Origin: a bacterium
GTDB lineage: Bacteria > Actinomycetota > Acidimicrobiia > Acidimicrobiales > CATQHL01
NCBI GenBank assembly: GCA_026708055.1
Contig: JAPOVS010000019.1
Coordinates: 64,532-128,531 of the forward strand
DNA: 64,000 nucleotides
Reading direction: 5' to 3'
The position numbers and the translations under genes are program-made. Of this stretch, positions 9,539 through 56,048 are shown one piece after another (within the stretch, counting starts at the first letter, position 1; every line of letters starts with the position of its first letter). The notes beneath the pieces were generated by a model. That model searched no databases, was not told where the DNA came from, and saw only the letters and a list, made by a program, of their open reading frames with translations.

Positions 9539-9540
9539 GC

Positions 9541-21887: not shown

Positions 21888-21918
21888 TTTTGCCTTGCCG
21901 GGCTGCCAGACTGCACCC

Positions 21919-23166: not shown

Positions 23167-23275
23167 CCGGCTACCGGGCAGTGCCTCCGACCACCGCTCG
23201 CGTCGTTCCTCTCGCGGCCCGATCTGCGCCTCCAGTGAGTCACCGGGCGCACGCCGAGCCAATGCCCCCGCAGCG

Positions 23276-25522
23276 ATGAGCGCCCGGAGTCCAGGTCGCA
23301 TCGTGCCGGGCGGAGCGGCGCCGTTCGGTGCTTGGCCGTCGCCGGTCACGCCCGAGTCGCTGGCCGCCGGCAGTGTCCGGATCACCTCGCTGGTGGCCGA
23401 CGGCGGCGACCTGTGGTGGTCCGAGACGCGGCCCGCGGCGAACGGCCGGACCGTGCTGATGCGCCGCAGCGCCGACGGGTCGGTGCGGGAGATGACCCCG
23501 CCGGACGCCAACGTGCGCAGCCGCGTCCACTCCTACGGCGGCGCCGCTTGGTGGGTGGCCGACGGCGTCTGCGTGTACTCCGACGACAGCGACTTCCGGC
23601 TGCGGCGTCTCGGCGCCGACGACGGCGAGCCTGTCGCGCTCACGCCCGAGGGCGCCGACCGCTCGTCTCTCTACGCTGACGGTCGGCTCAGCGCCGACGG
23701 GCAGTGGTTCGTGTGCGTGCGGGAACGCCCCGCACGCCCCGAGAACGTCAACGAGATCGTCTCTGTGGCCCTCGACGGCAGCGGCCGGGTGGAGGTGACT
23801 GTCAGCGGTGCCGACTTCTACTCCGACCCCCGTCCCTCGCCGTGCGGGCGCCGGCTGGCCTGGTTGCAGTGGGACCACCCGAACATGCCCTGGGACGGTT
23901 GCGAGCTGCACGTGGCGCGCCTCGATGGCCCCACGGTCGCCGGGTCCCGGTGCGTCGCCGGTGGGCTCGACGAATGGATCTTCGGGCCGGCTTGGGGTGA
24001 CGGCGGGCCGAACCGGGTGAGCGACGGCTCGGGATCGTCCACGCGCGCTGCCGCCGCGCCTCATGACGTGGATCCCTCGTCGCTCACTTGGGTAAGCGAC
24101 GGTTCGGGGTGGTCCACCCTGTGGGTACTGGAGGGCGATCCGCTGGCGGCGGATGCCTCGCCGCGCATCCGGCTGGACTTGCCCGACGGCGAGATCCAGA
24201 CCGCCCCCTGGGTGTTCGGCATGAGCCGCTACGCCGTGTGGTCGGCCGCGGGGGATCGCGGGGGTCTGGCCTATGCGGTGGCCCGCCGGGGAGGCCACGA
24301 GCTGCGGCTCGTAGGCGGGCGGCCGGGCGCCGCTGGTGTCGGGGCCGCCGACGCAGGCACCGCCGAGAGCAGTGAGGACCCGGGTGATGCGAGGAGCGGC
24401 ACTGCGACCGGTGGACTTGCCGCGTCGCTGCGCCCGCGGGGTGCGCGTGACGACCCGGCTGATGTGAGACGCGGCACTGCGGCGGTCGCGGGATCCGAGG
24501 TGCCCGCCGTGGCCACCTGCCGGGCGCACACCTCTTTCGGTGCCTTGCGTGCCTGGGAGGGGGGTGTGGCCTGCGTGGCCGGCTCGCCGTCGGTGGAGAA
24601 CGAGATCCTGCACGTCACCGGCGCAGGCGCGGTGGCGGAGGCTCGAGTCGTGTACTCGCCGCCGGCACTGCGCCTCGATCCGGGCTTGACGCCGGAACCC
24701 GAGCCGGTGACGTTCCCCACGACCGGCGGCGATGTGGCGCACGGCTGGTTCTACCGCCCGGCCAACCCCGACGTCGCCGTTAGTGAGGGCGCCGGTGCGC
24801 CGCCGCTGCTGGTCATGGCCCACGGCGGCCCCACTGGGGCGGCCCGCACCGCCCTGCACCTGGGGCTGCGTTACTGGACCAGCCGGGGCATCGCCGTGGT
24901 GGACGTGGACTACCGGGGCAGCACCGGCTACGGCAGGGCGTACCGCCGCGCCCTCGACGGCGGCTGGGGCGTCACCGACGTGGCCGACTGCGTGGCGGCG
25001 GCACGGCACCTTGCCGAGCGCGGCGAGGCCGACGGTGATCGCCTGGCCATGATCGGCGCCAGCGCCGGGGGCTACGCGGTGCTGCAGGCCGTCACGGAGT
25101 ACGACGTGTTCTCCGCCGGCCTCATCCGCTACGGCGTCACCGACCTGGAGGCCCTGGCCCGCGACACCCACAAGTTCGAGAAGCACTACATGGACCGCCT
25201 CGTTGGCCCGTACCCCCAGGAGCGCGACCTCTACGTCGAGCGCTCGCCGATCCACCGGGTGGAGCGCATCTCGTGTCCCATGCTCGTCCTGCAGGGCGAC
25301 AGCGATCCCGTGGTGCCGCCGAAGCAGGCGGAGGCACTGGTGGAGGCCCTGGAGCGCAACGGGCTCCCCTACGCCTACCTTCTGTTCGAGGGCGAGGCGC
25401 ACGGCTTCCGGGGCGCCGAGGCGATCGTGGCGGCCGCCGCGGCCGAGCTCTCCTTCCTGGCGCAGATCTTCGGCTTCGAGCCAGCCGACGACGTCGCGCC
25501 CGTCGCGGTGCGCAACCTCTGA
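23276..25522 (+). CDS. S9-family prolyl oligopeptidase (acylaminoacyl-peptidase-like)
   Basis: 748 residues. N-terminal beta-propeller with WD-like strands, then an alpha/beta hydrolase. Catalytic triad visible: Ser596 in 'GASAGGYA', Asp677 in 'GDSDPVV' and His709 in 'GEAHGF'. The 'HGGPTGAARTALHLGLRYW' oxyanion region is typical. It cleaves short peptides, likely cytosolic since no signal peptide is seen. Two in-frame inserts sit in the propeller (about residues 248-280 and 367-405), each repeating a host segment 75 bp apart, making the protein longer than the usual 620-680 residues. Confidence 0.9.
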   Translation: MSARSPGRIVPGGAAPFGAWPSPVTPESLAAGSVRITSLVADGGDLWWSETRPAANGRTVLMRRSADGSVREMTPPDANVRSRVHSYGGAAWWVADGVCVYSDDSDFRLRRLGADDGEPVALTPEGADRSSLYADGRLSADGQWFVCVRERPARPENVNEIVSVALDGSGRVEVTVSGADFYSDPRPSPCGRRLAWLQWDHPNMPWDGCELHVARLDGPTVAGSRCVAGGLDEWIFGPAWGDGGPNRVSDGSGSSTRAAAAPHDVDPSSLTWVSDGSGWSTLWVLEGDPLAADASPRIRLDLPDGEIQTAPWVFGMSRYAVWSAAGDRGGLAYAVARRGGHELRLVGGRPGAAGVGAADAGTAESSEDPGDARSGTATGGLAASLRPRGARDDPADVRRGTAAVAGSEVPAVATCRAHTSFGALRAWEGGVACVAGSPSVENEILHVTGAGAVAEARVVYSPPALRLDPGLTPEPEPVTFPTTGGDVAHGWFYRPANPDVAVSEGAGAPPLLVMAHGGPTGAARTALHLGLRYWTSRGIAVVDVDYRGSTGYGRAYRRALDGGWGVTDVADCVAAARHLAERGEADGDRLAMIGASAGGYAVLQAVTEYDVFSAGLIRYGVTDLEALARDTHKFEKHYMDRLVGPYPQERDLYVERSPIHRVERISCPMLVLQGDSDPVVPPKQAEALVEALERNGLPYAYLLFEGEAHGFRGAEAIVAAAAAELSFLAQIFGFEPADDVAPVAVRNL
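24017..24115 (+). repeat. In-frame duplication, 75-bp period, in the S9 peptidase gene (insert 1)
   Basis: GTGAGCGACGGCTCGGG at 24017 recurs as GTAAGCGACGGTTCGGG at 24092, 75 bp later. The unit is also palindromic: GTGAGCGACG at 24017 is answered by its exact complement CGTCGCTCAC at about 24078-24087, with further inner matches, so the insert could fold as an imperfect hairpin. Confidence 0.75.
24374..24481 (+). repeat. In-frame duplication, 75-bp period, in the S9 peptidase gene (insert 2)
   Basis: A 33-bp stretch from 24374 (peptide EDPGDARSGTA) recurs 75 bp later at 24449 (DDPADVRRGTA). Several positions differ, so the copies are not recent. The DNA between them encodes Gly/Leu/Arg-rich residues with no similarity to insert 1. 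Confidence 0.7.
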
Positions 25523-29169: not shown

Positions 29170-30753
29170 ATGTCGGTACAGAATCCGGACCGGGTCGTCA
29201 TCTTCGACACCACGCTGCGCGACGGCGAGCAGTCGCCCGGCATCTCCCTGGACCAGAGCGAGAAGCTCGAGATCGCCGAGCAGCTCGCCCGGCTCGGCGT
29301 GGACATCATCGAGGCCGGCTTCCCGATCGCCAGCGGGGGCGACTTCGAGGCGGTGCAGGTGATCGCCAAGGCGGTGCAGGGACCGGTCATCTGCGGCCTC
29401 TCCCGGACCGCCCACAAGGACATCGACCGCTGCTGGGAGGCCATCGAGGCGGCTGAGCGGCGGCGCATCCACGTGTTCATCGCCACGAGCGAGACCCACA
29501 TGCGCCACAAGCTCCGCATGACCCCCGAGCAGGTGAAGGCCGAAGCGGCCTCCGCGGTGGCGCGGGCAAGGAGCTACACCGACGACGTGGAGTTCTCCCC
29601 CGAGGACGCCTCGCGCAGCGACTTCGACTTCATGTGCGAGGTGCTCCAGGTGGCCGCCGACAACGGCGCCACCACGCTGAACATTCCCGACACGGTGGGC
29701 TACGGCGTCCCGGAGGAGTACGCCGAGAAGCTGCGGCGCATCCGGGAGCAGGTGAGCGGTGACTACGTGCTGTCCACGCACTGCCACAACGATCTGGGCC
29801 TGGCGGTTGCCAACTCGCTGTCGGGAGTGCTGGCGGGCGCCCGTCAGGTCGAGTGCGCCGTCAACGGCATCGGCGAGCGGGCCGGCAACGCCGCGCTCGA
29901 GGAGATCGTCATGGCGGTCAAGACCCGCGACGACTTCTTCGGCGGCCTGGAGGTGGGGATCCGCACCGAGGAGCTCCACAAGACGAGCCGGCTGGTGAGC
30001 CGCCTGACGGGCTATCCCGTCCAGTACAACAAGGCGGTCGTGGGGCGCAACGCCTTCGCCCACGAGGCGGGGATCCACCAGCACGGCGTGCTCAGCGAGC
30101 GCACCACCTACGAGATCATGGACCCGCAGGCGGTGGGCCAGGAGGGCAGCCAGATCGTGCTGGGCAAGCACTCCGGCCGCCACGCCTTCGCCGACCGCCT
30201 CCAGAGCCTGGGACTCGACATCACCGGTGACGCCCTGAACGCGGCGTTCGCGCGCTTCAAGGAACTCGCCGACCGCAAGATCGAACTCACCGACGCCGAC
30301 CTCGAGGCGATCGTGGCCGACGAGGTGGGCAGCGCGCTGGAGCACGCCTTCGAACTGCAGGTGCTCGAGTGCCACGGCGGAAGCGTCGGGACCGGCACGC
30401 CCAGCGCCACCGTCGTCGTGTCGGTGCACGGCGAGTCGCGTACCGCCCGGGAGGAGGGCAACGGCATGGTCGACGCCGCCTGCAAGGCGGTCAAGGCGGC
30501 CACCGGCGTCCACGGGCGCCTGACGGACTACAGCGTCACGTCGGTCACCGGCGGCGTGGACGCCCTGGCGGACGTGGCGCTGCGGTTCGAGTCCACCGAC
30601 GGTGTGACCGTGTCGGGCCGCGGGCTGTCGAGCGACGTGGTCGAGGCCTCGGTGCGGGCCTTCGTGAGCGCCCTCAACAAGGTGGCGCGGGTGCGGGCGT
30701 CGGGCGAGAACCCCGACGCCGTGGACCGCCCCGGCCGCCTCTTCACGGTCTAG
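29170..30753 (+). CDS. leuA: 2-isopropylmalate synthase
   Basis: 527 residues, complete. 'IFDTTLRDGEQSPG' starts the TIM-barrel with the metal/substrate aspartate, 'STHCHNDLGLAVANS' carries the metal-site histidines, and 'GRNAFAHEAGIHQHGVL' the flexible region. Residues after about 390 form the LeuA regulatory domain for leucine feedback. Condenses 2-oxoisovalerate with acetyl-CoA, first step of leucine synthesis. The 5' region has a leader peptide and terminator (29044-29144), so expression is probably controlled by leucine supply. It ends 3 nt before the giant protease gene, which converges on it. Confidence 0.96.
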   Translation: MSVQNPDRVVIFDTTLRDGEQSPGISLDQSEKLEIAEQLARLGVDIIEAGFPIASGGDFEAVQVIAKAVQGPVICGLSRTAHKDIDRCWEAIEAAERRRIHVFIATSETHMRHKLRMTPEQVKAEAASAVARARSYTDDVEFSPEDASRSDFDFMCEVLQVAADNGATTLNIPDTVGYGVPEEYAEKLRRIREQVSGDYVLSTHCHNDLGLAVANSLSGVLAGARQVECAVNGIGERAGNAALEEIVMAVKTRDDFFGGLEVGIRTEELHKTSRLVSRLTGYPVQYNKAVVGRNAFAHEAGIHQHGVLSERTTYEIMDPQAVGQEGSQIVLGKHSGRHAFADRLQSLGLDITGDALNAAFARFKELADRKIELTDADLEAIVADEVGSALEHAFELQVLECHGGSVGTGTPSATVVVSVHGESRTAREEGNGMVDAACKAVKAATGVHGRLTDYSVTSVTGGVDALADVALRFESTDGVTVSGRGLSSDVVEASVRAFVSALNKVARVRASGENPDAVDRPGRLFTV

Positions 30754-30756
30754 CGC

Positions 30757-33700
30757 CTAGTCGTCGTCGATGATGGTGCCGGTGGCGGTGCGGTCGGTGA
30801 GGGTGGCGCCGACGGGGTCGGACAGGACCAGCTGGAAGGTCTCGTCGGCCTCTCGTCTGTTGTCTGCGTTCGGTATGACGGTGATGCCGCGGCGGGTTGT
30901 GCCCGGCCTGAAGGTCAGCCGGCCCCGGGCTCCGGGGTAGTCGAGGTAGTCGTAGGCGGTGCCTTCCTGAGTCTGGTAGCCGACGGTCACCGTCCGGGTC
31001 GACGCCTCGCTGAGGACCACGACGAAGGTGATCGCTCCGGTGTCCTCGCCGGCGCGGGAGTACCGGGTGTCGATGGTGATGGCGGGCAGTCCGGCGGGCG
31101 GGGGCTGGTCGTCGTTGGTGATGGCGGTGGCGATGGGGCCGCCAACTGCGGTGACGCCGCCTGAGAGTCCCTGCCCCGACGGGGCGAGCCTGCCTGCGGC
31201 CAACGCCACCGCCACGGTGCGCTCGGCGGTGTCGTCGTTGGGCAGCGCAACCAGCACGAGCGTCGCCTGCTGCCCGCCCGCGGCGAGCACCACTGCGGGG
31301 TTCTGTGCGCTGTGGGGGCCGTCGGTGAGCAGCGTCACGTGGTCGTTGACTCCCTGGCCTTGCTTGAGCGCCAGGGTGTAGTGGCCGCCGGCGGCGGCGC
31401 CGGTCACGGCCAGGGGCGCGGTGAGGGTCTCGCCGGCAGCCAGGGCCCGGCCAGCGGTGACGGTGATCTCCCTGGTGCCGCCGTCCTCGGCGATGGCGGC
31501 ACCGGCGACGGCCGCCAGCGTGACGGTGGTGGCGTCGCCGTCGGAAACCGCCACCGTGGCCGAGCCCTGCGACGACGAGACGGTGTAGCCGCTGCCCGCG
31601 GTCACGGTCACGGTCACCGACCCGTCGGCCTCGTCAGTGCTGTCATTCGCCGTGGCCACGGTGTATGACTTGGTGCCGCTGGTGGGAACGATCACGGTCT
31701 TCGTGCCCGTCGACGCGCCGTAGTCGCCGCTCTGGGTGACCGTCACCGAGACCGGCAGCGGCGCAGCAGGAGCCGGGTTGGCAGTGACAGTGAACGCAGC
31801 GCTGCCGCCCTCGGTCACAGCCGCCCCCGCGGTCACGCCGACCTCCGGCGTCGGCGGAGGTGGAGGGGGTGGGGGAGAGGGTGGCAGATCATCGTCTGAG
31901 ACAGCCACCGACGCCGCGCCATGCGCCGCCGACACCGTGTAGCCCTGACCGGCGTCGAGAGTGACGGTGACCGACCCGTCAGCCTCATCAGCATCGTCGT
32001 CCACCGTCGACACCGTGAGCCGGGCTGTTCCGCCGGTCGGGATCACCACCGTCTTCGAGCCGGTCGACACACCGTAATCGCCCTGCTGGGTGACGGTCAC
32101 GCCCACCGACAGAGCGGCTGCGGGAGCCGGGCTGGCCGTGACCGTGAACGCAGCGCCACCGCCCTCCGTGATGCCCGCGCCCGCGGTGACGCTGATCTCG
32201 GGCGTCGGCGTCGGCGGCGGGGGCGGTGTGGGGGTTCGCGGTGTGGCGCGGCAGGCCTCGAGGCGGTCCAGTTCGGCGTACACCTTCTGCCACAGCGCGT
32301 TGGGTCCGTTGCCCTGCCAGTTCGGCTCCTGGCGGTCGGGGCGGGCCTTGAGCGCCGCCACCGTGTAGGTGTCGGTGCCCAACATGGTGTTGTAGGAGCG
32401 GGTGAACGTCTCCAACAGATCCGGGCGCCCCCCGTTCCACGGATCCCGGGTCTTGGCCAGCACCTGGGCCAGCAACGCTGTGTCCGCGGTGACGCAGGTC
32501 TGCGGCACCGGCGGCGGGTCGTCGTCATCGGAGACCGCCACCGTCGCCGAGCCCTGCGACGACGACACGCTGTAGCCCTGGCCTGTGTTCACGGTGACGG
32601 TGACCGAGCCGTCGGCCTCGTCGACGCTGTCGCCGGCGGTGGCCACGGTGTAGCTCTTGGCGCCGCTCGTGGGAACCGTCACCGTCTTGGTGCCCGTCGA
32701 CACGCCGAAATCGCCCGTCTGGGTGACGGTCAGCGACACCGACAGCGGCGACGCAGGCGCCGGGCTCGCCGTGACAGTGAACGACGCGCTGGTGCCCTCG
32801 GTGACGCCGGGTCCCGCGGTCACGCTGACCTCCGGCGTCGCCGACGGCGGGTCGTCGTCATCGGAGACCGCCACCGTCGCCGAGCCCTGCGACGACGACA
32901 CGCTGTAGCCCTGGCCTGTGTTCACGGTGACGGTGACCGAGCCGTCGGCCTCGTCGGCGCTGTCGTCTATCGTGGCGACGGTGTGGCTGACGCTGCCGCT
33001 GGTGGGGACCGTGACGGTCTTCGTGCCGGTCGTGCCGGGCGCGGCGTAGTCGCCCGTCTGGCCGACGGCGACGCTCACGGTCAGCGGTGCCGCGGGCGCG
33101 GGGTCGGCGGTCACAGCGAAAGCGGCAGAGCCGCCCTCGGTTATGCCGGTGCCTGCGGTGACGCTGATCCGGGGGGTCGGCGTCCGGCTTCGCGCGTCGT
33201 TGTCGTAGACCACGGCGCCGGCCGAGATGCGGGACCGCGAGACGGTGTAGCCGCTGTCTCGTGCCACCATGACGATGATCATGCCGTTGCGTTCGGCGAC
33301 GGCGTCGTCGTCGGTGGCGACGCTGTGCTGCGCCGAGCCGGAGACGGGGATGGTCACCTGCTGGACGCCGGCGGCGCCCGGTGCCAGGTGATCCCCGATC
33401 TGCAGCACTTGCAGCGAGACCGTCAGCGGAGACGAGGGCGCCGGGCTGGCGGTGACGGTGAAGCGGGCGTCGTCGCCCTCGGTCAAGGTGACGGCCACGG
33501 CGGTGACCCCGACCTCCGGCCCTGGCAGGTCGTCGTCGGCCACGGCCACCGTCGCCGCGCCCTGGGCGGACGAGACCTTGTAGCCGCTGCCCGCGTCCAC
33601 CGTGACGGTCACCGAGCCGTCGGGCTCTGCCACCTCGTCATCGACCGTGGCAAAGCTCTGGGCGACGCTGCCGCCGGCGGGAACCGTCACCGTCCGCGCG

Positions 33701-36700
33701 CCCGTCGACACGCCGAAGTCGCCTGTCTGCGCGACGGCCAGCGACACCGTCAGCGGCGCCGACGGGGCGGGATCGGCGGTCAACGTGAAGACCGCGCCGT
33801 CGCCCTCGGTCACGCCGGGGCCGGCGGCCACGCCGACCACCGGCGTGTCGTCGTCCGCGACGGCCACCGTCGCCGCGTCCTGGGCGGACGAGACCTTGTA
33901 GCCGCTGCCCGCGTTCACCGTGACGGTCACCGAGCCGTCGGGCTCTGCCACGTCGTCATCGACCGTGGCAAAGCTCTGGGCGACGCTGCCGCCGGCGGGA
34001 ACCGTCACCGTCCGCGCGCCCGTCGACACGCCGAAGTCGCCTGTCTGCGCGACGGCCAGCGACACCGTCAGCGGCGCCGACGGGGCGGGATCGGCGGTCA
34101 ACGTGAAGACCGCGCCGTCGCCCTCGGTCACGCCGGGGCCGGCGGCCACGCCGACCACCGGCGCATCGTCCGGCGGAGGGTCATCATCATCGGACACCGC
34201 CACCGACGCCGCACGCATATTCGAAGACACGATGTAGCCGCTGCCCGCCTTCGCAGTCACCGTGACCGACCCATCGGCCTCATCCACCCCATCATCGATC
34301 GTCGCAACCGTGTACGGCGCCGAACCGCTGGTCGGAATCGTCACCGAATGCGAACCGGTCGCCCCCGCCGCGACAAAATCGCCCTGCTGAGCGACCGTCA
34401 ACGAGACAGTGAGCGGCGCGGACGGCGCCGGAACAGCCGACACGGTATAGGAGGCGGTGCCGCCCTCCGAGACCCCCGCACCACCCACCACACTCACCAC
34501 CAGAGGGGCGTCGTTGTCCCTCACCACAACGTCGGCCGATCCCTGGGTGGCAGACACCGTGTAGGCGTGAGATCCCACCACCCTGACCTTCATCAGCCCA
34601 TCGCGCTCATCAACCTTGTCATCGTGGGTCGCCTCCCAAATCTGCATCGAACGGCTGTATGAGCCGTTCCTTGGAAGGAATTCCAACCGGCGCGAACTGA
34701 GAATCCCGGGGACCTTGTAGGAGCCTCGCCAAGTCACCGCCAATATGACCGTGAGCGGCTTTATCGGAGTGGGGGTGGAAGTGACCGTGAAGACTGCGGA
34801 GCCGCCTTCAGTCACGGCGCTGTCACTGGTGGTGATGCTGATCTCCGGAACGTCCTCACTCCGGACTGTCTTCGTCGCCGAATCCTGCGACGAAGACACC
34901 GCATATCGGAGACCCGGGGTCACCCTGACCGTCACCGACCCGTTCAGTTCGTAGACGCTGTCGTCCACCGTGGCAACCCAGAACATGGCCGAACCGCTGA
35001 TGGGAACGGTCACCGTCCGGGCGCCCAAGTCCCCCGAAGCGACATAATCGCCCGACTGCGACACCAGCAGCGAAACCGTCAGCGGCGCATCCGGAGCAGA
35101 GTCGGTGGTCAGCGTGAAAGTGGCCGCGTCGCCCTCGGTCACGGTTCCGCCGCCGGCAATGCTCACCACGGTTCTCTCATCATCCCTGTCGTCCACTGGC
35201 ACCGCAGCCGAACCCTGCCCGACAGCGATCCTGTAACCCTCGCCGTTCCACACCGCCACCCGCACCGACCCATCAGGTTCTGCGTAACCGTCGTCCACGA
35301 TGTCCACCGCGAACTGGGCCGTGCCGCCGGTCGGGACCGTCACCGAATGCGAACCCAGATCGGCCGCAGCAACGAAGTCGCCCTGTTGTGACACCAGCAA
35401 GTTGACGGTCAGCGGCGCCTTCGGAGCAGGGGCGGCGGTGATTGTGAAGGTGGCCGCTTCGCCTTCGGTAGCCGGGCCGCCCCCGGTGACGGTGACCTCG
35501 GGTACGGGATCGTCGCCGGCGATGGTGACCGTGAAGGGCGCCCCCAGCGCCAGGACACCCGAAGGCGTGGCGCCCAGACCCACCTTGAAGGTCTCGTCCG
35601 GTTCGGCCCTCCCGTCGTCGAGCACCTCGATGGCCCCGCTGCCCTGGGCCTTCCCGGCGGGAATCGTCACCGACGCCAATGAGGTGATGTCGGCTCCGGC
35701 GCCGGTCACGGTGGCCGTCCCGGCGCTGACCGAGATGGGAACCACCAGATCACTGGTGAACGTTCCACCGCTCAGCGTCGCCCCGACCGTGACCGTCTCG
35801 CCCTCGTCGGCGTCCACGTCGATGCCGGTGCCGCCGTCCACCGACAGACGCAGCCGCGGCCGCCCGTCGGTGCTCTGGCCGCTGTGTCCGTACACGGTCA
35901 GAGTGGCCGTCCGCACCTCGGCGAACTCCCCCCAAGAAGGACCGGCCGTGTTCCTGCGGGAGGGGAACTGGTCTGAGATGCGGAGCTTCCAGGTCCCCGA
36001 GGGATCCTCTCCCAGGTGCCGGGTGGAACTGAAGTTGAAGCTGCCGCTGATCCCACACGGGAGCCTGCACCCGTATCCCCCTTCCCAGGGCTCCAGCAGC
36101 AGAGACTCGGTGCCCGCGGGCGACACCAGCCTGATATCGAGATCTCGGGCGAACTCCGTCCAGAGACCCAACTCGACATCCACATGCTCAACGAAATCGA
36201 TGGAAGTGGAAAGAGTGAGCGGTATCTCGACCACCTGCCGGTCCTCGAGAATCCGATACGTCACCGACGTGGAGGCCGAGGCGGTCTGCATCGCCGGCAA
36301 CAGCGGCCACTCGAATGCCAGATCCACCGCCGCGGACGCGTCGACCAGACCGAAACCGTACTTGTGGCTGTAGTGATACCTGTGGTCGGCGTCGCTGTAC
36401 TTGGAGGCGCCGGTGCTCCAGCTGCTGTCACCGGGGTCGTTGCGGCGGGCGGTGTCCGCCAGGATCAACTTCACATCACGCCAGGTCAACTCGGCATTCA
36501 CACCGCGCATCAGCGCCACCACACCGGACACCATGGGCGCCGCCGCGCTGGTCCCCCAAAAAAACCGAGTGTACTCGGAATGACCCGTCGTAGTCAGAAT
36601 ATTCTTCGAGAGGCTACTCGAGCGGCTACTCGAGGGCGCGCAGACCCACAGATTGTCCCCTTCCGACGAGTAATCCGACGACTCCCCCGCATGGTTCACC

Positions 36701-38046
36701 GCGCAGACATTGACAATGCCGCGATGATTGCGGAACTCGGCCATTCCCACCAGGCGATACCACCCGCTTTCCTTGGAGTTCCCGGCAGCCGCCACCTGAA
36801 CCGTGCCCCGTCCCGAATACCCGTGGGTCAATCCGCTCTCCAGAGCACTGATCAGCAGACTCGGCGCCCGAATCAGACGCCCCGTGTTGAGGCCCTTTTG
36901 GCCATAACTGTGATTGGAGACCCCCACCTCTTCCTTGTGACGGGTCAGCGAATCGATCTGGTTGGCGAGCGTGTAATTGCTCAACAGGTTGTAGGGGTAG
37001 ATCGTCGCTCTCGGGGCGACGCCGCGACTGCCGAGGTCGTTGTCCGCCGCCGCCGCCACTCCAGCCACCCGGGTGCCGTGTTCGCTTCTGCCACCTCCGG
37101 TGACGCTGGGGTAGTTGGTGCCCTTGTCGGTCCTGAGGTTCGGGGCCAGGTCCTCATGGCGATGATCGATCCTGCTATCCACAATGGCGACATTGACCCC
37201 CTCCCCCCGGCTCACCCCCCACGCGTCGACCACATTGACATCGACCACGGGATCATGACCGTTCGGGCCGCGGTAGTCGGTGTCGCTGCGAAGGTGCCAC
37301 AGACACCCTGACAGACGATCGGAGAGCCACGCCCGAAAGCCTGTGCAATATCCAACTGTGGGAGAGTCCACGTCGGCGCCCGAACTGCTGTCGACGCCGA
37401 GCGGCAGGATCCAGTCGGGGCTCACACTGCGAACCGACGACTCCCCGGCCAGCGTGTCGGCGATCAGCAGCGCATCGAGGGGGGAGCCGGTGGCCACGTA
37501 GTAGCTGTCCGCCAAACCCCCCAACACCGACACCGAGCCGCCGCCCGCGTCGTGGTCCGCCAGCACCCCCCGAGCCCGGGCATCCGTCGTCCCGGGCTGG
37601 AACTGCACGATCACCCCTCCCCGCAGGGCCATCACCTGCCCGGTGTCCGTCGCCACCCACCTGGCCCCCTCGAACACCGAAGTGCCGTTCCCGTCGAAAT
37701 CGGGCAGAACCGCCTCCGCCCCCTCTTCGCCCAGCCACTCGGCAACCTCCCCCTCACCCAACGGCCGGACCGGGACACCCCGACCACCGTCATCCCAAAC
37801 CCACCAACCGTCGTCGCCGAAAATGGCCGCCGCCGACCAGACATCCTCCGCCGGCCCCAACGGATCGCCCGGCAGCTCCTCCCCACCTTCCAAACCCTCA
37901 GCCTCGTCGGGCCCGGCGTCCCCCTCGCTCGCGCCCACCGCCGCCGCGCCCGCATTCAGCAACACCGCCGCCGCCACCAGCGCAACCCCCACACCCCGCA
38001 TCCGCCGGGACAAAGAGAACGCCCAGCGGGCCACCACGCCGCTCAT
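30757..38046 (-). CDS. Giant secreted subtilisin-like protease with P-domain and Calx-beta-like repeats
   Basis: 2429 residues starting at the ATG read from 38046, just before an export signal ('GVALVAAAVLLNAGAAAVGA'). Peptidase S8 catalytic residues: Asp290 ('AIVDSRID'), His323 ('SEHGTRVAG') and Ser500 ('WGTSAAAPMVSG'). Then a proprotein-convertase P-domain ('DLDIRLVSPAGTESLLL'), a Calx-beta module, and about eleven ~105-residue repeats of the form 'V/ITEG..FTVTA.PAP..PLTV', ending with further Calx-beta modules. An unrelated two-Cys segment interrupts the repeats near 32250-32500. No sortase motif or C-terminal anchor is seen, so it is probably released or held by the repeats. Repeats with acidic loops are likely calcium-binding (inference). 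Confidence 0.88.
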   Translation of the reverse strand: MSGVVARWAFSLSRRMRGVGVALVAAAVLLNAGAAAVGASEGDAGPDEAEGLEGGEELPGDPLGPAEDVWSAAAIFGDDGWWVWDDGGRGVPVRPLGEGEVAEWLGEEGAEAVLPDFDGNGTSVFEGARWVATDTGQVMALRGGVIVQFQPGTTDARARGVLADHDAGGGSVSVLGGLADSYYVATGSPLDALLIADTLAGESSVRSVSPDWILPLGVDSSSGADVDSPTVGYCTGFRAWLSDRLSGCLWHLRSDTDYRGPNGHDPVVDVNVVDAWGVSRGEGVNVAIVDSRIDHRHEDLAPNLRTDKGTNYPSVTGGGRSEHGTRVAGVAAAADNDLGSRGVAPRATIYPYNLLSNYTLANQIDSLTRHKEEVGVSNHSYGQKGLNTGRLIRAPSLLISALESGLTHGYSGRGTVQVAAAGNSKESGWYRLVGMAEFRNHRGIVNVCAVNHAGESSDYSSEGDNLWVCAPSSSRSSSLSKNILTTTGHSEYTRFFWGTSAAAPMVSGVVALMRGVNAELTWRDVKLILADTARRNDPGDSSWSTGASKYSDADHRYHYSHKYGFGLVDASAAVDLAFEWPLLPAMQTASASTSVTYRILEDRQVVEIPLTLSTSIDFVEHVDVELGLWTEFARDLDIRLVSPAGTESLLLEPWEGGYGCRLPCGISGSFNFSSTRHLGEDPSGTWKLRISDQFPSRRNTAGPSWGEFAEVRTATLTVYGHSGQSTDGRPRLRLSVDGGTGIDVDADEGETVTVGATLSGGTFTSDLVVPISVSAGTATVTGAGADITSLASVTIPAGKAQGSGAIEVLDDGRAEPDETFKVGLGATPSGVLALGAPFTVTIAGDDPVPEVTVTGGGPATEGEAATFTITAAPAPKAPLTVNLLVSQQGDFVAAADLGSHSVTVPTGGTAQFAVDIVDDGYAEPDGSVRVAVWNGEGYRIAVGQGSAAVPVDDRDDERTVVSIAGGGTVTEGDAATFTLTTDSAPDAPLTVSLLVSQSGDYVASGDLGARTVTVPISGSAMFWVATVDDSVYELNGSVTVRVTPGLRYAVSSSQDSATKTVRSEDVPEISITTSDSAVTEGGSAVFTVTSTPTPIKPLTVILAVTWRGSYKVPGILSSRRLEFLPRNGSYSRSMQIWEATHDDKVDERDGLMKVRVVGSHAYTVSATQGSADVVVRDNDAPLVVSVVGGAGVSEGGTASYTVSAVPAPSAPLTVSLTVAQQGDFVAAGATGSHSVTIPTSGSAPYTVATIDDGVDEADGSVTVTAKAGSGYIVSSNMRAASVAVSDDDDPPPDDAPVVGVAAGPGVTEGDGAVFTLTADPAPSAPLTVSLAVAQTGDFGVSTGARTVTVPAGGSVAQSFATVDDDVAEPDGSVTVTVNAGSGYKVSSAQDAATVAVADDDTPVVGVAAGPGVTEGDGAVFTLTADPAPSAPLTVSLAVAQTGDFGVSTGARTVTVPAGGSVAQSFATVDDEVAEPDGSVTVTVDAGSGYKVSSAQGAATVAVADDDLPGPEVGVTAVAVTLTEGDDARFTVTASPAPSSPLTVSLQVLQIGDHLAPGAAGVQQVTIPVSGSAQHSVATDDDAVAERNGMIIVMVARDSGYTVSRSRISAGAVVYDNDARSRTPTPRISVTAGTGITEGGSAAFAVTADPAPAAPLTVSVAVGQTGDYAAPGTTGTKTVTVPTSGSVSHTVATIDDSADEADGSVTVTVNTGQGYSVSSSQGSATVAVSDDDDPPSATPEVSVTAGPGVTEGTSASFTVTASPAPASPLSVSLTVTQTGDFGVSTGTKTVTVPTSGAKSYTVATAGDSVDEADGSVTVTVNTGQGYSVSSSQGSATVAVSDDDDPPPVPQTCVTADTALLAQVLAKTRDPWNGGRPDLLETFTRSYNTMLGTDTYTVAALKARPDRQEPNWQGNGPNALWQKVYAELDRLEACRATPRTPTPPPPPTPTPEISVTAGAGITEGGGAAFTVTASPAPAAALSVGVTVTQQGDYGVSTGSKTVVIPTGGTARLTVSTVDDDADEADGSVTVTLDAGQGYTVSAAHGAASVAVSDDDLPPSPPPPPPPPTPEVGVTAGAAVTEGGSAAFTVTANPAPAAPLPVSVTVTQSGDYGASTGTKTVIVPTSGTKSYTVATANDSTDEADGSVTVTVTAGSGYTVSSSQGSATVAVSDGDATTVTLAAVAGAAIAEDGGTREITVTAGRALAAGETLTAPLAVTGAAAGGHYTLALKQGQGVNDHVTLLTDGPHSAQNPAVVLAAGGQQATLVLVALPNDDTAERTVAVALAAGRLAPSGQGLSGGVTAVGGPIATAITNDDQPPPAGLPAITIDTRYSRAGEDTGAITFVVVLSEASTRTVTVGYQTQEGTAYDYLDYPGARGRLTFRPGTTRRGITVIPNADNRREADETFQLVLSDPVGATLTDRTATGTIIDDD
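33533..34165 (-). repeat. Tandem pair of near-identical 318-bp units in the giant protease gene
   Basis: Two adjacent repeat modules are almost identical at DNA level with a period of 318 bp (106 codons): CGTGACGGTC at 33601 lines up with 33919, and only a handful of positions differ over the unit. The other modules of the gene are much more diverged, so this pair is a recent duplication and a site where copy number may vary. Confidence 0.85.
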
Positions 38047-38146
38047 CGGACCGTCGCTCACAGAACACACGCCGGATACCAAGTTAGTCTGCGCTTCCCC
38101 CCAAATCTTCGAGTGGTGGTTCAGAGCGCGCGCAAATAGGCGTTGA

Positions 38147-38212
38147 CCTCTCGCCGAGATCATCCAGGAGGCCGGCGTTCCGCCGGGAGTCTTCAACCTT
38201 GTCTCGGGTGAG
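38147..38212 (+). pseudogene. Remnant of an aldehyde dehydrogenase gene
   Basis: On the plus strand the sequence reads 'LAEIIQEAGVPPGVFNLVSG', which matches the ALDH-family block that lies between the NAD-binding site and the catalytic region. A stop codon sits just upstream (38144) and nothing ALDH-like follows, so this is a fragment of about 20 codons. It abuts other gene fragments. Confidence 0.6.
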
Positions 38213-38222: not shown

Positions 38223-38783
38223 CTAGGTGTGCTCGTCGCGCAGTCGGCGTTTGAGGATCTTGCCCTGCGTGTCCTTGGGCAGAGCGTCGGTGACGTGGAC
38301 TGCCTTGGGGACCTTGTAACCCGCCAGTGAGGCGCGACAGTGATCGATGATCTCGGCGGGTTCCACCGATCGTCCGGGCCTGGGGACGACGAAGGCGGTC
38401 ACGGCCTCGGACCAGTAGTCGTCGGGCAGACCCACCACGGCCACCTCCATGAGTGCATCGTGGCCGTAGAGCGCGCGCTCCACCTCCACCGAGGACACGT
38501 TCATCCCACCCGTCTTGATCATGTCCTTCTTGCGATCCACGAAGAAGAGGTTGCCGTCGGCGTCGATGCGGACGATGTCCTCGGTGTGCAGCCAGCCGTC
38601 CCGGAACACCTCCGCGGTGCGCTCCTCGTTGTTGAGATAGCCGAGCATCACCGAGGGCGAGCGGCAGATCAGCTCGCCCACCTCGGCGTCCGCGCCTTCG
38701 TCATCGACGACGCGGATCTCCAACTGCGGCACCGGTTTGCTGATCCAGGAGGCGTCGCCGCCGGGGATCTCTTCCGCCGCCAC
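38223..38783 (-). pseudogene. C-terminal fragment of an AMP-forming acyl-CoA ligase
   Basis: 186 codons matching only the last third of an acyl-CoA synthetase (normal length about 500). It holds 'GELICRSPSVMLGYLNNEE', the hinge-region motif 'HTEDIVRIDADGNLFFVDRKK' with its conserved Asp and Arg, and the final catalytic lysine block 'PKDTQGKILKR'. The N-terminal AMP-binding P-loop half is absent: at about 38783 the homology stops and the plus strand reads as an amidase tail. The fragment is unlikely to be functional on its own. Confidence 0.8.
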
Positions 38784-39046
38784 CGCTGGGAGTCCTGGAC
38801 CCCACCACCGAGGATCTGAACGGCTACCTGACGGCCGTCTTCAACTTCATCCCGTTCACGTCTCTGGCCAACATCGCCGGCGTGCCGGCCATGTCGGTCC
38901 CGTGGGACCGCAACGCCGACAACCTGCCGGTCGGCATCCACTTCACGGCCGGCTACGGGCGTGAGGACGTCCTGTTCCGTCTGGCCGGACAGCTCGAACA
39001 GGCACACCCCTGGCCCCTCCGCAGTCCGCAGGCCGATTCCGGCTGA
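38783..39046 (+). pseudogene. C-terminal fragment of an amidase-signature gene
   Basis: From about 38783 the plus strand reads 'LDPTTEDLNGYLTAVFNF', 'FTSLANIAGVPAMSVP', 'LPVGIHFTAGYGREDVLF' and 'LAGQLEQAHPWPL' to a TGA at 39044. This is the closing ~85 residues of an amidase of the 6-aminohexanoate-cyclic-dimer-hydrolase type; the catalytic Lys/Ser/Ser part is missing. Its broken left end meets the broken left end of the acyl-CoA ligase fragment, so two 3' gene ends are joined back to back. Confidence 0.75.
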
Positions 39047-39066: not shown

Positions 39067-39137
39067 GTGATCCCGGCGGGGGCCTGGGTCCACCGCCCGG
39101 CACTACCCCGTCATCCCGGTGGAGGCTGGGATCCACT
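39067..39137 (+). repeat. Two copies of a REP-like intergenic repeat
   Basis: GTGATCCCGGCGGGGGCCTG at 39067 and GTCATCCCGGTGGAGGCTGG at 39110 are 43 bp apart, and each continues into a G-(G/A)-TCCAC stretch. This resembles the common scattered 'CGTCATCCCGG...GGGATCC' intergenic repeat of many genomes. It lies at the 3' end of mftF, whose last residues run into it. Confidence 0.6.
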
Positions 39138-40268
39138 CTCGGGCGCGCCGGCCGGCGCTGCCGCCGGAGTACCGGCCACTCGGGTCAATTGAGGTCGCAG
39201 TGCGGCCGCGGAGCGCGCGGCGACTGCGCCGCGCCAGACCCCGGTGCAGTATGCGGCGTCGGAGTACAGCGTCGCCAGAATCCACCTGAGCGGCCCCATG
39301 GACGGTCGGCTGGTCGCCCAGGACGCCAACGGATCCACGATCAGCGCCGCCAGTGCCAGCTTCCGGCCCCAGGACGACGCCGTTGCAGCCACGAGCAGGG
39401 GGAGCCAGGTGCGCCGGACTGCCGTTGCCGCCCGCCGGCCGGCGACGAGATGGCTTCGCACGACGGTGCGGGCACAGTCCGCGATCGATGTCTCGCTGCG
39501 CCCCGCAAGGCGTTCGTGCAACTGCCGCATGCGTCTCGCTGCGATCGACGTCGCTGCCCATGCGCCTCTCCGACCGCCGAGCACCGGGGCCAGCCAGGCG
39601 GCGAGACTCCAAGGTGCGATTTCCAGCGGGACTGCGTACCCAGGGTGGCGCGCCGCCAGGGGCGCCGCGGACGTTCCGTAGCCGTAGCGCTGGCGACCCA
39701 GCGCGGCCCACCTGGGGCGATTGCGGTGGTGCACGACGACCGACGGCTCGTAGCGCACCGTCCATCCCGCCGCGACCGCCCGCCAGATCAGGTCGACGTC
39801 CTCGCCAAGCCGGAGGTCCTCGTCGAAACCGCCGAGCGCGTCCAGAACGTCGCGGCGGAACAGCAGAGCCGCCGAGGGGACGTATCGCACTCGCCGGCGT
39901 GGGCTGACGATGCTCGGGAGGGGGCCCATGTCCAGCGGCGAGCAGTGACGCTCGAAGCGGTCCAGCGTGCTGCCGTCGGCCGCTCGGGCGCGCACACGCG
40001 GCGCGATTGCGGCGACGGCCGGGTCGGCGAAATGTGCCAGAAGCGGCGCCAACCAGCCCGGCGTCACCTCGACGTCGGCGTCGAGGAACGCCACGATCGG
40101 GGTGTCGGTCGCCCGCCAAGCTTCATTGCGGGCTGCCGCCGGTCCCCGTGCGACCTCACGCTGGATGAGGCGGGCACAGCCGCGACGAGCGACGTCCTCG
40201 ACCGCGCCCTGGCCGTCGCACCGGAGGTGTCGGTGCGCCCGGAGCCGTTCGGCGCGCTGCTCTATCAC
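39111..40268 (-). CDS. mftF: Mycofactocin glycosyltransferase MftF, N-terminally truncated
   Basis: The homologous part covers about 360 residues and begins near 40193; the frame is open farther (GTG at 40268) only because it crosses mftB antisense. Present: 'RGPAAARN', 'TPIVAFLDADVEVTPGWL', 'SPLDMGPL', 'RRVRYVPSAALLFRRDVL' and 'RLGEDVDLIWR', the MftF block order. Missing: about the first 95 residues, including the GT2 'VVxPxxN' strand and the first DD-x-S motif. MftF adds glucose units to premycofactocinol. The loss, together with the abrupt junction with mftB, suggests a deletion or assembly join. Activity is doubtful. Confidence 0.8.
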   Translation of the reverse strand: MIEQRAERLRAHRHLRCDGQGAVEDVARRGCARLIQREVARGPAAARNEAWRATDTPIVAFLDADVEVTPGWLAPLLAHFADPAVAAIAPRVRARAADGSTLDRFERHCSPLDMGPLPSIVSPRRRVRYVPSAALLFRRDVLDALGGFDEDLRLGEDVDLIWRAVAAGWTVRYEPSVVVHHRNRPRWAALGRQRYGYGTSAAPLAARHPGYAVPLEIAPWSLAAWLAPVLGGRRGAWAATSIAARRMRQLHERLAGRSETSIADCARTVVRSHLVAGRRAATAVRRTWLPLLVAATASSWGRKLALAALIVDPLASWATSRPSMGPLRWILATLYSDAAYCTGVWRGAVAARSAAALRPQLTRVAGTPAAAPAGAPESGSQPPPG

Positions 40269-40457
40269 TTCGGCTCGCGGCGCCTGTCGTTTCTGAAGGA
40301 CGCGCGGCTGCTGTCGGTGATCGAAGGCCTCGGCGACGCCCCCACGGCGCGGGCCGCATGCGCCGCCGCGGGCGTGGCTGCAGGCGCCCTCCCGGCCTTC
40401 GAGCGCGCCCTCGAGCGGCTCGTCGCCGGCGGGATGCTGCAGGAGCGCGGCTCGTGA
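40227..40457 (+). CDS. mftB: Mycofactocin peptide chaperone MftB, 5' end missing or unclear
   Basis: The core 'SVRPEPFGALLYHFGSRRL' with 'SFLKDARLLSVIEGL' and 'LERLVAGGMLQERGS' is a clear MftB match, a small RiPP-recognition protein that hands the MftA precursor to MftC. Similarity starts near 40197 ('VLDRALAVAPEV'), but no ATG, GTG or TTG is in frame there; the first is the GTG at 40227, within the conserved core. So the start has probably been lost, in the same place where mftF is cut. Stop overlaps the mftC GTG (GTGA). Confidence 0.8.
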   Translation: MSVRPEPFGALLYHFGSRRLSFLKDARLLSVIEGLGDAPTARAACAAAGVAAGALPAFERALERLVAGGMLQERGS

Positions 40458-41629
40458 GCGCGGCGATGCCGCTGGTGGAGCACTTCGCGGCCGGCCTGAA
40501 CGCGCCGATCTGCCTCACCTGGGAACTGACCTACGCCTGCATCCTGGCCTGCCGCCACTGCCTGTCCAGCTCTGGGCGGCGCGACCCGGAGGAACTCTCG
40601 ACCGACGAGGCGAAGGCGGTCATCGACGAACTCGAGCAGATGCAGGTCTTCTACGTGAACATCGGCGGCGGCGAGCCGACGATCCGCTCGGACTTCTGGG
40701 AGATCGTCGACTATGCGGCGGCCCACCACGTCGGCGTGAAGTTCTCAACCAATGGCTCGCGGATCACGGCGGACATCGCCCGCCGCATCGCCGCCGGCGA
40801 CTACCTCGACGTCGAGATCTCTCTCGACGGGGCGACCGCCGCGGTCAACGACGATGTGCGCGGCGCCGGTTCGTTCGCCACCGCCGTCGCCGCTATGGAG
40901 CGGCTGGCCGCCGCCGGCGTCGCCGGATTCAAGCTCTCGGTGGTGTGCACCCGGCGAAACCTCGGCCAACTCGACGCGTTCGAGGCGCTCGCCGACCGGT
41001 ACGGGGCGCAGCTGCGACTGACCCGGCTGCGGCCGTCGGGCAGGGGAGCCGACGTCTGGGACGAACTGCACCCCACGGCCGATCAGCAGCGAGACCTCTA
41101 TCTCTGGTTGCTGGATCACGGTGAGCAGGTGCTGACCGGCGACTCGTTCTTCCACCTGGGCGGCTACGGCGACGCACTGCCGGGACTCAACCTCTGCGGC
41201 GCCGGCCGGGTGGTGTGCCTCATCGATCCGGTGGGCGACGTCTACGCCTGCCCGTTCGCCATCCACGACGCCTTCCTGGCGGGCAATGTGCGGGATCCCA
41301 GTGGGTTCACACGGGTCTGGCGCGAGTCGGAACTGTTCCGGTCGCTGCGCGAGCCGCAATCGGCCGGCGCCTGCTCGTCCTGCTCGGCGTTCGACGTGTG
41401 CCGCGGCGGGTGCATGGCGGCCAAGTTCTTCACCGGGCTGCCGCTCGCCGGACCCGACCCGGAGTGCGTCAAGGGGCACGGGCAGGCGGCGCTCGCGGGC
41501 GTCGAGCCGGGTTCGATCCCCAGGCCCTCCGTCGATCACTCACGGGTGACGTTCTCCCGGCGCCGGCCCGACCGGGCATGCGACGAGAACCCTCTCGCGG
41601 GGTCGGACCTCGTGGCCTCGGGGGTCTGA
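40454..41629 (+). CDS. mftC: Mycofactocin radical SAM maturase MftC
   Basis: 391 residues from the GTG overlapping the mftB stop; an ATG at 40466 is also possible. The radical SAM cluster motif is Cys29-x3-Cys33-x2-Cys36 in 'YACILACRHCLSS', followed by 'GGGEPT'. A C-terminal SPASM-type domain has further Cys residues ('CSSCSAFDVCRGGC') for auxiliary iron-sulfur clusters. MftC decarboxylates and cyclises the C-terminal Val-Tyr of MftA. All expected cysteines are present, so the enzyme looks intact even though its upstream partners are damaged. The mftD ATG overlaps its stop. Confidence 0.94.
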   Translation: MSAAMPLVEHFAAGLNAPICLTWELTYACILACRHCLSSSGRRDPEELSTDEAKAVIDELEQMQVFYVNIGGGEPTIRSDFWEIVDYAAAHHVGVKFSTNGSRITADIARRIAAGDYLDVEISLDGATAAVNDDVRGAGSFATAVAAMERLAAAGVAGFKLSVVCTRRNLGQLDAFEALADRYGAQLRLTRLRPSGRGADVWDELHPTADQQRDLYLWLLDHGEQVLTGDSFFHLGGYGDALPGLNLCGAGRVVCLIDPVGDVYACPFAIHDAFLAGNVRDPSGFTRVWRESELFRSLREPQSAGACSSCSAFDVCRGGCMAAKFFTGLPLAGPDPECVKGHGQAALAGVEPGSIPRPSVDHSRVTFSRRRPDRACDENPLAGSDLVASGV

Positions 41630-42807
41630 TGGGCGGCGGATGGTTCGAGTCGGTCGCCGAGGCCCGTCGGCGCGCCGAGCGGGTGCTGCCGCCGTCGGTC
41701 GCCGCGGCGCTGCACGCCGGGTCCGAAGCGAGCATCACGCTCGCCGACAACACGGCGGCGTTCGGCGAACTGGGTTTCGCCCCGAGCGTGGCGGGCAAGG
41801 CCGGCCATCGGGACCTCTCCGTCTCCGTGATGGGCCAGGCGCTGTCGATGCCCGTTCTGATCTCACCGGTGGGCGTGCAGGCCGTGCACCCCGACGCCGA
41901 GGTGGCCGTCGCCCGAGCGGCTGCCGCCCGGGGCACGGCCATGGGGTTGAGCTCTTTCGGCGCCAAGCCGGTGGAGGAGGTCGTTGCCGCCAACCCCCAG
42001 ACGTTCTTCCAGGTCTACTGGGCGGGGTCGCGGGAGCGCATCGAACAGCGACTCGAGCGTGCCCGGGCGGCGGGTGCCGCCGGGCTCATCGTGACGCTCG
42101 ACTGGTCGTTCGTGCACAGCCGCGACCGGGGGAGTCCGTTCATCCCCCAGAAGATCGACCTGACGGCGGTCCGGAAGCTCGCGCCGGAGCTGGCGCGACG
42201 ACCCCGGTGGCTGGGCCGCTGGCTCCGGTCCGGCAGACTGCCCGGGCTCGCGGTGCCGAACATGACGATCTCCGGGGAGGAACCGCCCGGTTTCTTCGCG
42301 GCCTACGGCGAGTGGATGCAGACCCCGCCGCCGTCGTGGGAAGACCTGGCGTGGCTCCGCTCCCAGTGGGAGGGCCCGTGCATGATCAAGGGCATCGTGC
42401 GGGTCGACGACGCCAGGCGTGCCGCCGACATCGGTGCCACGACCGTCTCGGTGTCGAACCACGGCGGCAACAATCTCGACGGCACCCCGGCGACGATCCG
42501 CGTGCTCCCCGCGGTCGCCGAGGCCGTCGGCGATTCCGTCGAGGTGCTGCTCGACGGGGGCGTCCGTCGCGGCGCCGACGTGGTGAAGGCCGTGGCTCTC
42601 GGCGCCCGCGCGGTCATGATCGGCCGTGCCGCCCTGTGGGGCCTGGCCGCCGACGGTCAGGCGGGCGTCGAGAACGTGCTCGACGTCCTCCGCGACGGCA
42701 TCGATTCGGTACTCCTGGGTCTCGGCCGGGGCGCGGTCACCGAACTCGACCCGTCCGACATCGTCGTGCCCCCGGATTTCGCCGTGACGCTCGGCGCCGG
42801 CGGGTAA
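41629..42807 (+). CDS. mftD: Mycofactocin FMN-dependent dehydrogenase MftD
   Basis: 392 residues. Alpha-hydroxy-acid oxidase fold: 'LISPVGVQAVHPDAEVAVAR', Lys in 'CMIKGIV', catalytic His in 'SVSNHGGNNLDGTP' and 'LDGGVRRGADVVKA' for FMN phosphate. In mycofactocin synthesis MftD oxidatively deaminates the dicyclic intermediate to premycofactocin. 'GTPATIRVLPAVAEAVGD' is the group-specific stretch after the His. Starts at an ATG that overlaps the mftC stop (TGATG). Complete in length. Confidence 0.93.
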   Translation: MGGGWFESVAEARRRAERVLPPSVAAALHAGSEASITLADNTAAFGELGFAPSVAGKAGHRDLSVSVMGQALSMPVLISPVGVQAVHPDAEVAVARAAAARGTAMGLSSFGAKPVEEVVAANPQTFFQVYWAGSRERIEQRLERARAAGAAGLIVTLDWSFVHSRDRGSPFIPQKIDLTAVRKLAPELARRPRWLGRWLRSGRLPGLAVPNMTISGEEPPGFFAAYGEWMQTPPPSWEDLAWLRSQWEGPCMIKGIVRVDDARRAADIGATTVSVSNHGGNNLDGTPATIRVLPAVAEAVGDSVEVLLDGGVRRGADVVKAVALGARAVMIGRAALWGLAADGQAGVENVLDVLRDGIDSVLLGLGRGAVTELDPSDIVVPPDFAVTLGAGG

Positions 42808-42818
42808 GTGGCGAAGCC

Positions 42819-43595
42819 GTGCCCGTCGCGCTGATCACCGGCGCCGCCCGCGGCATCGGCGCGGCCACCGCCGAGGCCCTGGCCGCGACCGGCTGGAACC
42901 TCGTGCTCTTCGACGTCTGCCGTGACGACCCGGCGCTGGGCTATCCGCTTGCCAGCCGGGAGGAACTGGGAGCGACCGCGCAGCGCTGCGGTGGTGAGGC
43001 GATCGTGGGCGACGTGCGATCCGTGGGCGACCTCGAGCGGGCGGTCGAGTTGGCCGTCGACCGGTTCGGCGGGCTGGACGCCGCCGTCGGCGTGGCAGGC
43101 GTGTTGATCGCCGCCGGCCGTGTCTGGGAGATGCCCGATGAGCAGTGGCACACCACCCTCGACACCAACCTCACCGGCACCTTCCATCTCGCGCGGGCCG
43201 CGGTGCCGGCCATGCTCGCTCGTCCTGCTCCGCGCTCGGGCCGTTTCGTCGCGGTGTCGTCGGCGGCCGCGCTGAAGGCCACGGTTCGCCTGGCGGCCTA
43301 CAGCGCCTCGAAGGCGGGCGTCATCGGCTTTGTGCGAGGCCTCGCAGCCGATCTCGCCGACACCGGGATCACCGCCAACGCCGTCCTGCCAGGCTCAACC
43401 GACACGATGCTCCTGACCCACAGCGCCGAGGTCTACGGCATTGACGACCCCGCCCGCTTCGCCGACCACCACGTCGACCACCGGATCATCGGGCCCGAAG
43501 AGGTCGCAGCCGTCGTGGCGTGGCTCTGCTCCGAAGCCTCCGGCGCGCTCACCGGTGCCGCCGTCCCCGCCGACGGGGGAATGACCGCCCGCTAG
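42819..43595 (+). CDS. Mycofactocin-coupled SDR family oxidoreductase
   Basis: 258 residues from a GTG 11 nt after mftD. 'ITGAARGIGAATAEALAATG' then 'NLVLFDVCRDDPALGYPLAS' shows the longer loop after the second strand that marks mycofactocin-associated SDRs, which hold NAD tightly and pass electrons to mycofactocin. Active site 'YSASKAGVIGFVRGLA'. Final 'VPADGGMTAR' is a typical end. Usually such SDRs act on alcohols or sterols. It closes the plus-strand mft group; mftE is not in the place where it would be expected. Confidence 0.87.
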   Translation: MPVALITGAARGIGAATAEALAATGWNLVLFDVCRDDPALGYPLASREELGATAQRCGGEAIVGDVRSVGDLERAVELAVDRFGGLDAAVGVAGVLIAAGRVWEMPDEQWHTTLDTNLTGTFHLARAAVPAMLARPAPRSGRFVAVSSAAALKATVRLAAYSASKAGVIGFVRGLAADLADTGITANAVLPGSTDTMLLTHSAEVYGIDDPARFADHHVDHRIIGPEEVAAVVAWLCSEASGALTGAAVPADGGMTAR

Positions 43596-52164: not shown

Positions 52165-52238
<74 letters not shown>

Positions 52239-54885: not shown

Positions 54886-54967
54886 GCTATCGCCGAATGC
54901 CCGGGGGGTTGCGGCACGCGGACTCATTCCCCGCCGTTCTCCCGGGCGCCGATATAGGGTCAGTGGC

Positions 54968-55897
54968 ATGGAGATGCGGAACATCGGGACCCTGCCGGTG
55001 TCTGTCGTGGGGCTGGGATGCAACAACTTCGGCATGACGATCGACGCCGAGGCCTCGCGGGCGGTGGTGGACGCGGCCCTCGAGGCCGGGATCAACTACT
55101 TCGACACCGCTGACATCTATGGAGGGGGCAAGTCGGAGGAGTTCCTGGGTGCGGCGCTGGCCGGGAACCGTGACCGTGCGGTGATCGCCAGCAAGTTCGG
55201 CCACGCCAAGTTCCTGCCGGAGGGTCAACGGGGCGGTGACCCCGCCTGGGTCCGCCGCTGCGTGGACCGCAGCCTGCGGCGGTTGGGCACCGACCGCATC
55301 GACCATTACCAGATCCACACGCCCGACCCCGAGACCCCGCAGGCCGAGACGCTTGGCGCCCTGGCGGAGTTGGTGGAGGAGGGCAAGGTCTTGGAGATCG
55401 GCTGCTCCAACTTCACCGCTGACCTCGTCGACGCCAGCGTCGATGCCGCGGCCGAGATGGGTGTGGGCAACTACGCCAGCGTCCAGAACCACTACTCGGT
55501 GCTGACTCGCGATGTCGAGGACGCCGGAGTGCTCGCCGCCTGCGGCCGCGCCGGCATGGCCGTGGTGCCCTTCTTCCCGCTGGAGTCCGGGCTGCTGACC
55601 GGCAAGTACTCCGGGGCGGCTCGACCCGACGGCGCCCGCTTGACCACGATGAAGGGCCGCACCTGGGAGCGCTTCCTGCGCGAGGAGAACCTGGCCGCGG
55701 TGGACCGGCTCATCGCTTACGCCACCGAGCGGGGCCGCAGCATCCTGGAGTTGGCTATGGGGTGGCTGGTGTCCAACCCGACGGTTGCCTCGGTCATCTG
55801 CGGCGCCACGAAGCCTTCGCAGGTGGCGGCCAACGTGGCCGCAGCCGGCTGGACGATGACCTCCGAACAGCGAGCCGAGATCGCCGCACTGGCCTAG
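54968..55897 (+). CDS. Aldo/keto reductase
   Basis: 309 residues from the ATG at 54968. 'NYFDTADIYGGGKSEEF' contains the catalytic Asp and Tyr, 'VIASKFGH' the Lys and 'DHYQIHTPD' the His of the AKR tetrad. 'EIGCSNF' and 'VASVICGATKPSQVAAN' at the C-terminus bind NADPH phosphate and are typical of the AKR11/12-like bacterial group. Reduces aldehydes or ketones; substrate unknown. TATAGG about 10 nt upstream may be a -10 box. Confidence 0.92.
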   Translation: MEMRNIGTLPVSVVGLGCNNFGMTIDAEASRAVVDAALEAGINYFDTADIYGGGKSEEFLGAALAGNRDRAVIASKFGHAKFLPEGQRGGDPAWVRRCVDRSLRRLGTDRIDHYQIHTPDPETPQAETLGALAELVEEGKVLEIGCSNFTADLVDASVDAAAEMGVGNYASVQNHYSVLTRDVEDAGVLAACGRAGMAVVPFFPLESGLLTGKYSGAARPDGARLTTMKGRTWERFLREENLAAVDRLIAYATERGRSILELAMGWLVSNPTVASVICGATKPSQVAANVAAAGWTMTSEQRAEIAALA

Positions 55898-56048
55898 CCG
55901 GAACCGCCCCCGCCGGCGGGCAACTCGAGCTCGTTTGGGATCCACCACCGGGGCGTGCGCGCGGGGGAAGCTACGGCGGTGGCCGGAGCTGCCGTCGAAA
56001 TCGGGTTGGCGGAGCAGTCTCGGCGCAGCACCGACGGGGGATGGCCGG

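Follow-up and report, generated by a model that had tools for sequence, protein, structure and literature searches.

A mycofactocin gene cluster with an apparent recent deletion across mftF, mftA and mftB in an uncultured actinobacterial genome

Introduction

Mycofactocin is a redox cofactor, and the mftABCDEF genes of M. smegmatis provide the described system with which the locus analyzed here can be compared. MftA provides the Val-Tyr core; deletion of mftF in M. smegmatis abolishes mycofactocins, and deletion of mftE lowers them and does no more, which its authors explain by substitution of another peptidase (PMC7491314). The presence of mftC alone has served as a proxy for the pathway (PMC11778925).

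The locus lies in a window of 64,000 bases (bases 64532 to 128531 of contig 19, which is 258,952 bases long) from an uncultured actinobacterial genome, assembled as an 87-contig draft of 3.9 Mb with an estimated completeness of 96%. As judged by family models, it has in common with M. smegmatis mftB, mftC, mftD, the C-terminal part of mftF and a mycofactocin-coupled SDR dehydrogenase. It differs in having neither mftA nor a canonical mftE, in the lack of a start in both mftF and mftB, and in carrying mftF on the opposite strand.

Results

Within the window, the mftF remnant occupies positions 39111 to 40187 on the minus strand, with homology confined to 39184 to 40187. In a family-model search it scored 329 to 330 bits against TIGR03965 (cutoff, 280), matching positions 127 to 466 of 467, and its GT2 domain enters only at position 51 of PF00535; it is thus not a complete mftF. 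The first-pass annotation had recognized this truncation but underestimated it, as approximately 123 to 130 N-terminal residues are missing rather than about 95. On the plus strand, mftB (40194 to 40457) matches positions 3 to 85 of the 85 in TIGR03967, and the segment from 40200 to 40448 scores 94.6 to 98.5 bits (cutoff, 33), placing it within the family. Its start codon is absent, as had been reported; the closest in-frame ATG, GTG or TTG upstream is an ATG at 40032, inside the antisense mftF. Downstream are three intact plus-strand genes: the radical SAM maturase gene mftC (40454 to 41629; TIGR03962 positions 1 to 338 of 339, 632 bits, cutoff 265), the pre-mycofactocin synthase gene mftD (41626 to 42807; TIGR03966 positions 4 to 384 of 385, 642 bits, cutoff 470.85) and the mycofactocin-coupled SDR dehydrogenase gene (42807 to 43595, start approximate; TIGR04504 positions 2 to 259 of 260, 331 bits). 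No RNA or tRNA feature was found at the junction between mftF and mftB, the sole tRNA in the window being at 52165 to 52238.

A six-frame search of the whole assembly with TIGR03969 for mftA, which encodes the precursor with a C-terminal Val-Tyr, returned no match at an E value of 10 or below, in agreement with the earlier failure to see this gene. The identical search detected mftA in four same-genus genomes, adjoining mftF in each of the four. Intact copies elsewhere in the genome, which the first-pass annotation had named as a possible refutation, were sought for mftF and mftB as well as mftA; neither an intact mftF nor a second, intact mftB was found in the assembly.

The extent of the loss between mftF and mftB (junction J2; 40187 to 40194) was determined by comparison with contig C65 of the same-genus genome G007, in which the locus (numbered here as L039) is intact and has the order amidase, mftF (minus strand), mftA (plus strand), mftB, mftC, mftD and SDR. 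Gene order and strands are alike in the two genomes, with contiguous DNA identity of 86% from mftB to the SDR gene and 74% in mftF; G007 differs in its intact mftF, mftA and mftB start and in 656 additional bp. Window position 40187 corresponds to L039:1226 and 40194 to L039:1889, giving a net loss of approximately 656 bp that comprises the front of mftF, mftA, the start of mftB and the control region, while six window bases between these positions cannot be assigned to either side. In G007, mftA lies at L039:1686-1856 on the plus strand and ends in SIDGMCGVY, and mftB begins with an ATG at L039:1880 (ATG ACC GCC GTG CTG GAC...); homology in the window starts from the GTC at 40194, so that the first three codons (MTA, start included) and everything upstream are lost. 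The deletion of a divergent mftF/mftA-mftB control region that had been proposed from the window alone is therefore seen against an intact locus. The public contig of G007 opens with a run of 50 C residues (L039:1-50), probably an assembly or sequencing artifact.

A second junction (J1; 38771 to 38774) sits 1.4 kb to the left of J2 and joins the stubs of two further genes. One is a C-terminal remnant of an acyl-CoA ligase gene (38223 to 38771, minus strand), cut at its 5' end and corresponding to residues 505 to 686 of the 686 in the G004 open reading frame, with 90% DNA identity; the other is a C-terminal remnant of an amidase gene (38771 to 39046, plus strand), likewise cut at its 5' end and covering residues 384 to 472 of 475 with 91 to 92% identity. 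No intact copy of either gene was found in the genome, and the front of the amidase gene is missing from the whole assembly. The assertion that both neighbors of the mycofactocin genes are intact thus stands for the mftC side (mftC, mftD and SDR) and fails for the other.

The references for J1 were two same-genus genomes, G002 (contig C69) and G004 (contig C31). In both, leuA and the ligase gene lie in the same order to the left of the same amidase-mftF neighborhood, and a single contig carries the ligase and amidase genes, ordered and oriented as in the window, with the cut points approximately 19.8 kb apart. These genomes differ from the window in that this catabolic block is present, mftF-mftA-SDR is intact and mftBCD is on another contig. 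In G004 the block encodes a methylmalonyl-CoA mutase, an AstE/AspA-type hydrolase, a luciferase-like monooxygenase, parts of an ABC transporter, a zinc alcohol dehydrogenase and an aldehyde dehydrogenase (ALDH). When positions 12500 to 24999 of G004 contig C31 were compared with the whole genome by DNA search, high identity was confined to leuA and the ligase stub, and the first approximately 9.3 kb of the block beyond the ligase gene had no close match anywhere in the assembly. For the remainder of the block the comparison was limited to contig 19, apart from the amidase gene and the ALDH fragment, which were searched genome-wide.

To the left of the ligase stub, a 63-bp scrap of an ALDH gene (38150 to 38212, plus strand) shares 89% identity with G004:C31:32457-32519; it has no other specific copy in the genome, and the ALDH gene of the block survives only in this form. 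It is displaced, as in the relatives the ALDH gene adjoins the amidase gene, within the missing 19.8 kb. The left syntenic anchor is an intact leuA (29170 to 30753, plus strand; 2-isopropylmalate synthase, named from sequence), which has 97% amino acid identity to the G004 copy and is similar to that of G002. Between leuA and the ligase gene is a 7.4-kb insertion with no counterpart at that position in G002 or G004, a giant subtilase gene with P-domain and Calx-beta repeats (30757 to 38196, minus strand; PF00082, PF01483 and PF03160). The subtilase is 2,479 amino acids long, and two of its repeat units (33524 to 33823 and 33842 to 34141) are 98% identical.

Of the conserved genes in the region aligned, those interrupted at the breaks encode the ligase, the amidase and MftF, and nearly all others align over their full length. 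Approximately 11.5 kb of the window (7727 to 19255; C19:72258-83786) is absent from G004 contig C31 between adjoining syntenic blocks, and a segment of approximately 970 bp (54929 to 55899; C19:119460-120430) lies on the far side of an 11-kb block in that contig, a small transposition.

A divided locus was identified in three same-genus genomes (G002 contigs C69 and C60, G004 contigs C31 and C80, and G005 contigs C342 and C374), with mftF-mftA(-SDR) on one contig and mftB on another, joined there by mftC and mftD as far as the contig extends. The precursor gene is thereby separated from those of its chaperone and maturase, and both loci lie away from contig ends in G002 and G004. A peptide ending in CGVY is encoded on the mftB side in 23 of the 30 mftB loci read; the remaining seven include the window. 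That J2 arose by insertion of mftBCD into a mftF-mftA-SDR locus of the G004 type was considered and rejected, as G007 has the mftD-SDR order of the window contiguous with intact mftF and mftA.

As claimed previously, no mftE is seen: none in the genome exceeded the model cutoff of 172 bits, the best match being a creatininase relative on another contig (G000:C26:83469-84200; 128 bits) with homologs in G002, G003, G004, G007 and G008. This absence is not damage, as none of the same-genus genomes searched carried a canonical mftE above the cutoff, not even those whose mftA and mftF are intact; loss of mftE as part of the break was accordingly dismissed and its absence regarded as a trait of the genus. 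Two members of the order, by contrast, reach 268 to 287 bits. Most same-genus genomes carry the creatininase relative at approximately 128 to 168 bits, and one scoring 123 bits is present in G008, a member of the same family with no mftB match; the protein could be a substitute peptidase or unrelated. Given the genus-wide absence and the merely lowered mycofactocins of the M. smegmatis mftE deletion, lack of mftE is neither damage nor necessarily fatal.

All of the cut genes retain open reading frames under normal purifying constraint, with no sign of decay. The dN/dS of the mftF remnant is 0.24 to 0.33, compared to 0.21 to 0.34 between intact copies; the corresponding values are 0.13 to 0.21 and 0.13 to 0.18 for the ligase gene and 0.05 to 0.10 and 0.10 to 0.14 for the amidase gene. 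These values exclude long-dead pseudogenes, and because the cut genes evolve like intact ones, the break is either very recent or artifactual.

Discussion

The pieces are missing from the window, their order in the relatives is collinear with it, and where tested they are absent from the assembly. The first-pass annotation had offered a deletion or a chimeric assembly as the explanation, and of these we favor, with fair though not full confidence, a real, recent and complex deletion that ended mycofactocin synthesis. The ancestor would have had the G007-type order, with a catabolic block of approximately 20 kb (ligase, methylmalonyl-CoA mutase, transporters, dehydrogenases and ALDH) to its left. 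Multipoint nonhomologous joining may then have cut out this block, leaving the ligase stub, the amidase stub and the 63-bp ALDH scrap, and the same event would have taken the approximately 656 bp at mftF/mftA/mftB.

A chimeric or collapsed assembly, in which the organism's locus is intact and the contig joins pieces over unassembled sequence through a strain mixture or chimeric reads, ranks below a real rearrangement in likelihood and is, in our estimation, rather improbable. The draft state of the genome is compatible with it, two junctions and a scrap within approximately 2 kb of such a genome are suspicious, and the undiminished constraint on the remnants would fit an artifact equally well. 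However, the junctions lie in the interior of a 259-kb contig, and no repeat of at least 17 bp at the three junction zones was found within it, making repeat-mediated misassembly unlikely; a k-mer assembler would have needed real spanning reads. The missing block, where tested, is not found elsewhere in a 96%-complete assembly, and the displaced ALDH scrap demands additional junctions and is hard to obtain by a simple misjoin. Both the scrap and the failure to find the block where it was looked for thus favor a real rearrangement.

Under a real deletion, the gene content suggests that the pathway is probably dead, though its remaining enzymes look intact. With MftA absent, MftC would have no peptide to modify, and without its GT2 front MftF would be unable to glycosylate; because both are absent, mycofactocin would not be made, and mftB, mftC, mftD and the SDR gene would be leftovers that decay has not yet reached. 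For the pathway still to work, mftA would have to be unassembled or divergent elsewhere, mftB would have to be translated from an internal GTG at 40233, and another glycosyltransferase would have to replace MftF. The GTG is preceded at five bases by GGAGG, mftC, mftD and the SDR gene are intact, with mftC under constraint, and the position of mftA away from mftBCD in G002, G004 and G005 means that it need not adjoin mftB. Nevertheless, a functioning pathway seems very unlikely: a search that succeeds in four same-genus genomes finds no mftA here, the gene adjoins mftF in all four of them, and M. smegmatis makes no mycofactocin once MftF is lost (PMC7491314). Scarcely credible is a scavenging lifestyle, in which synthesis of the peptide core was given up and MftD and the coupled dehydrogenases were kept for a core or cofactor derived from the community.

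The gene cluster is a known one that bears a deletion scar, and events of this kind are ordinary; the modest interest of the locus lies in the freshness of the break and in the split locus of the sister genomes. The presence of mftC alone is no proof of cofactor synthesis. A deletion, if real, would represent a freshly broken cofactor pathway, captured before decay in a genus whose other members keep the pathway intact, and would make it possible to trace what becomes of orphaned mycofactocin-dependent enzymes.
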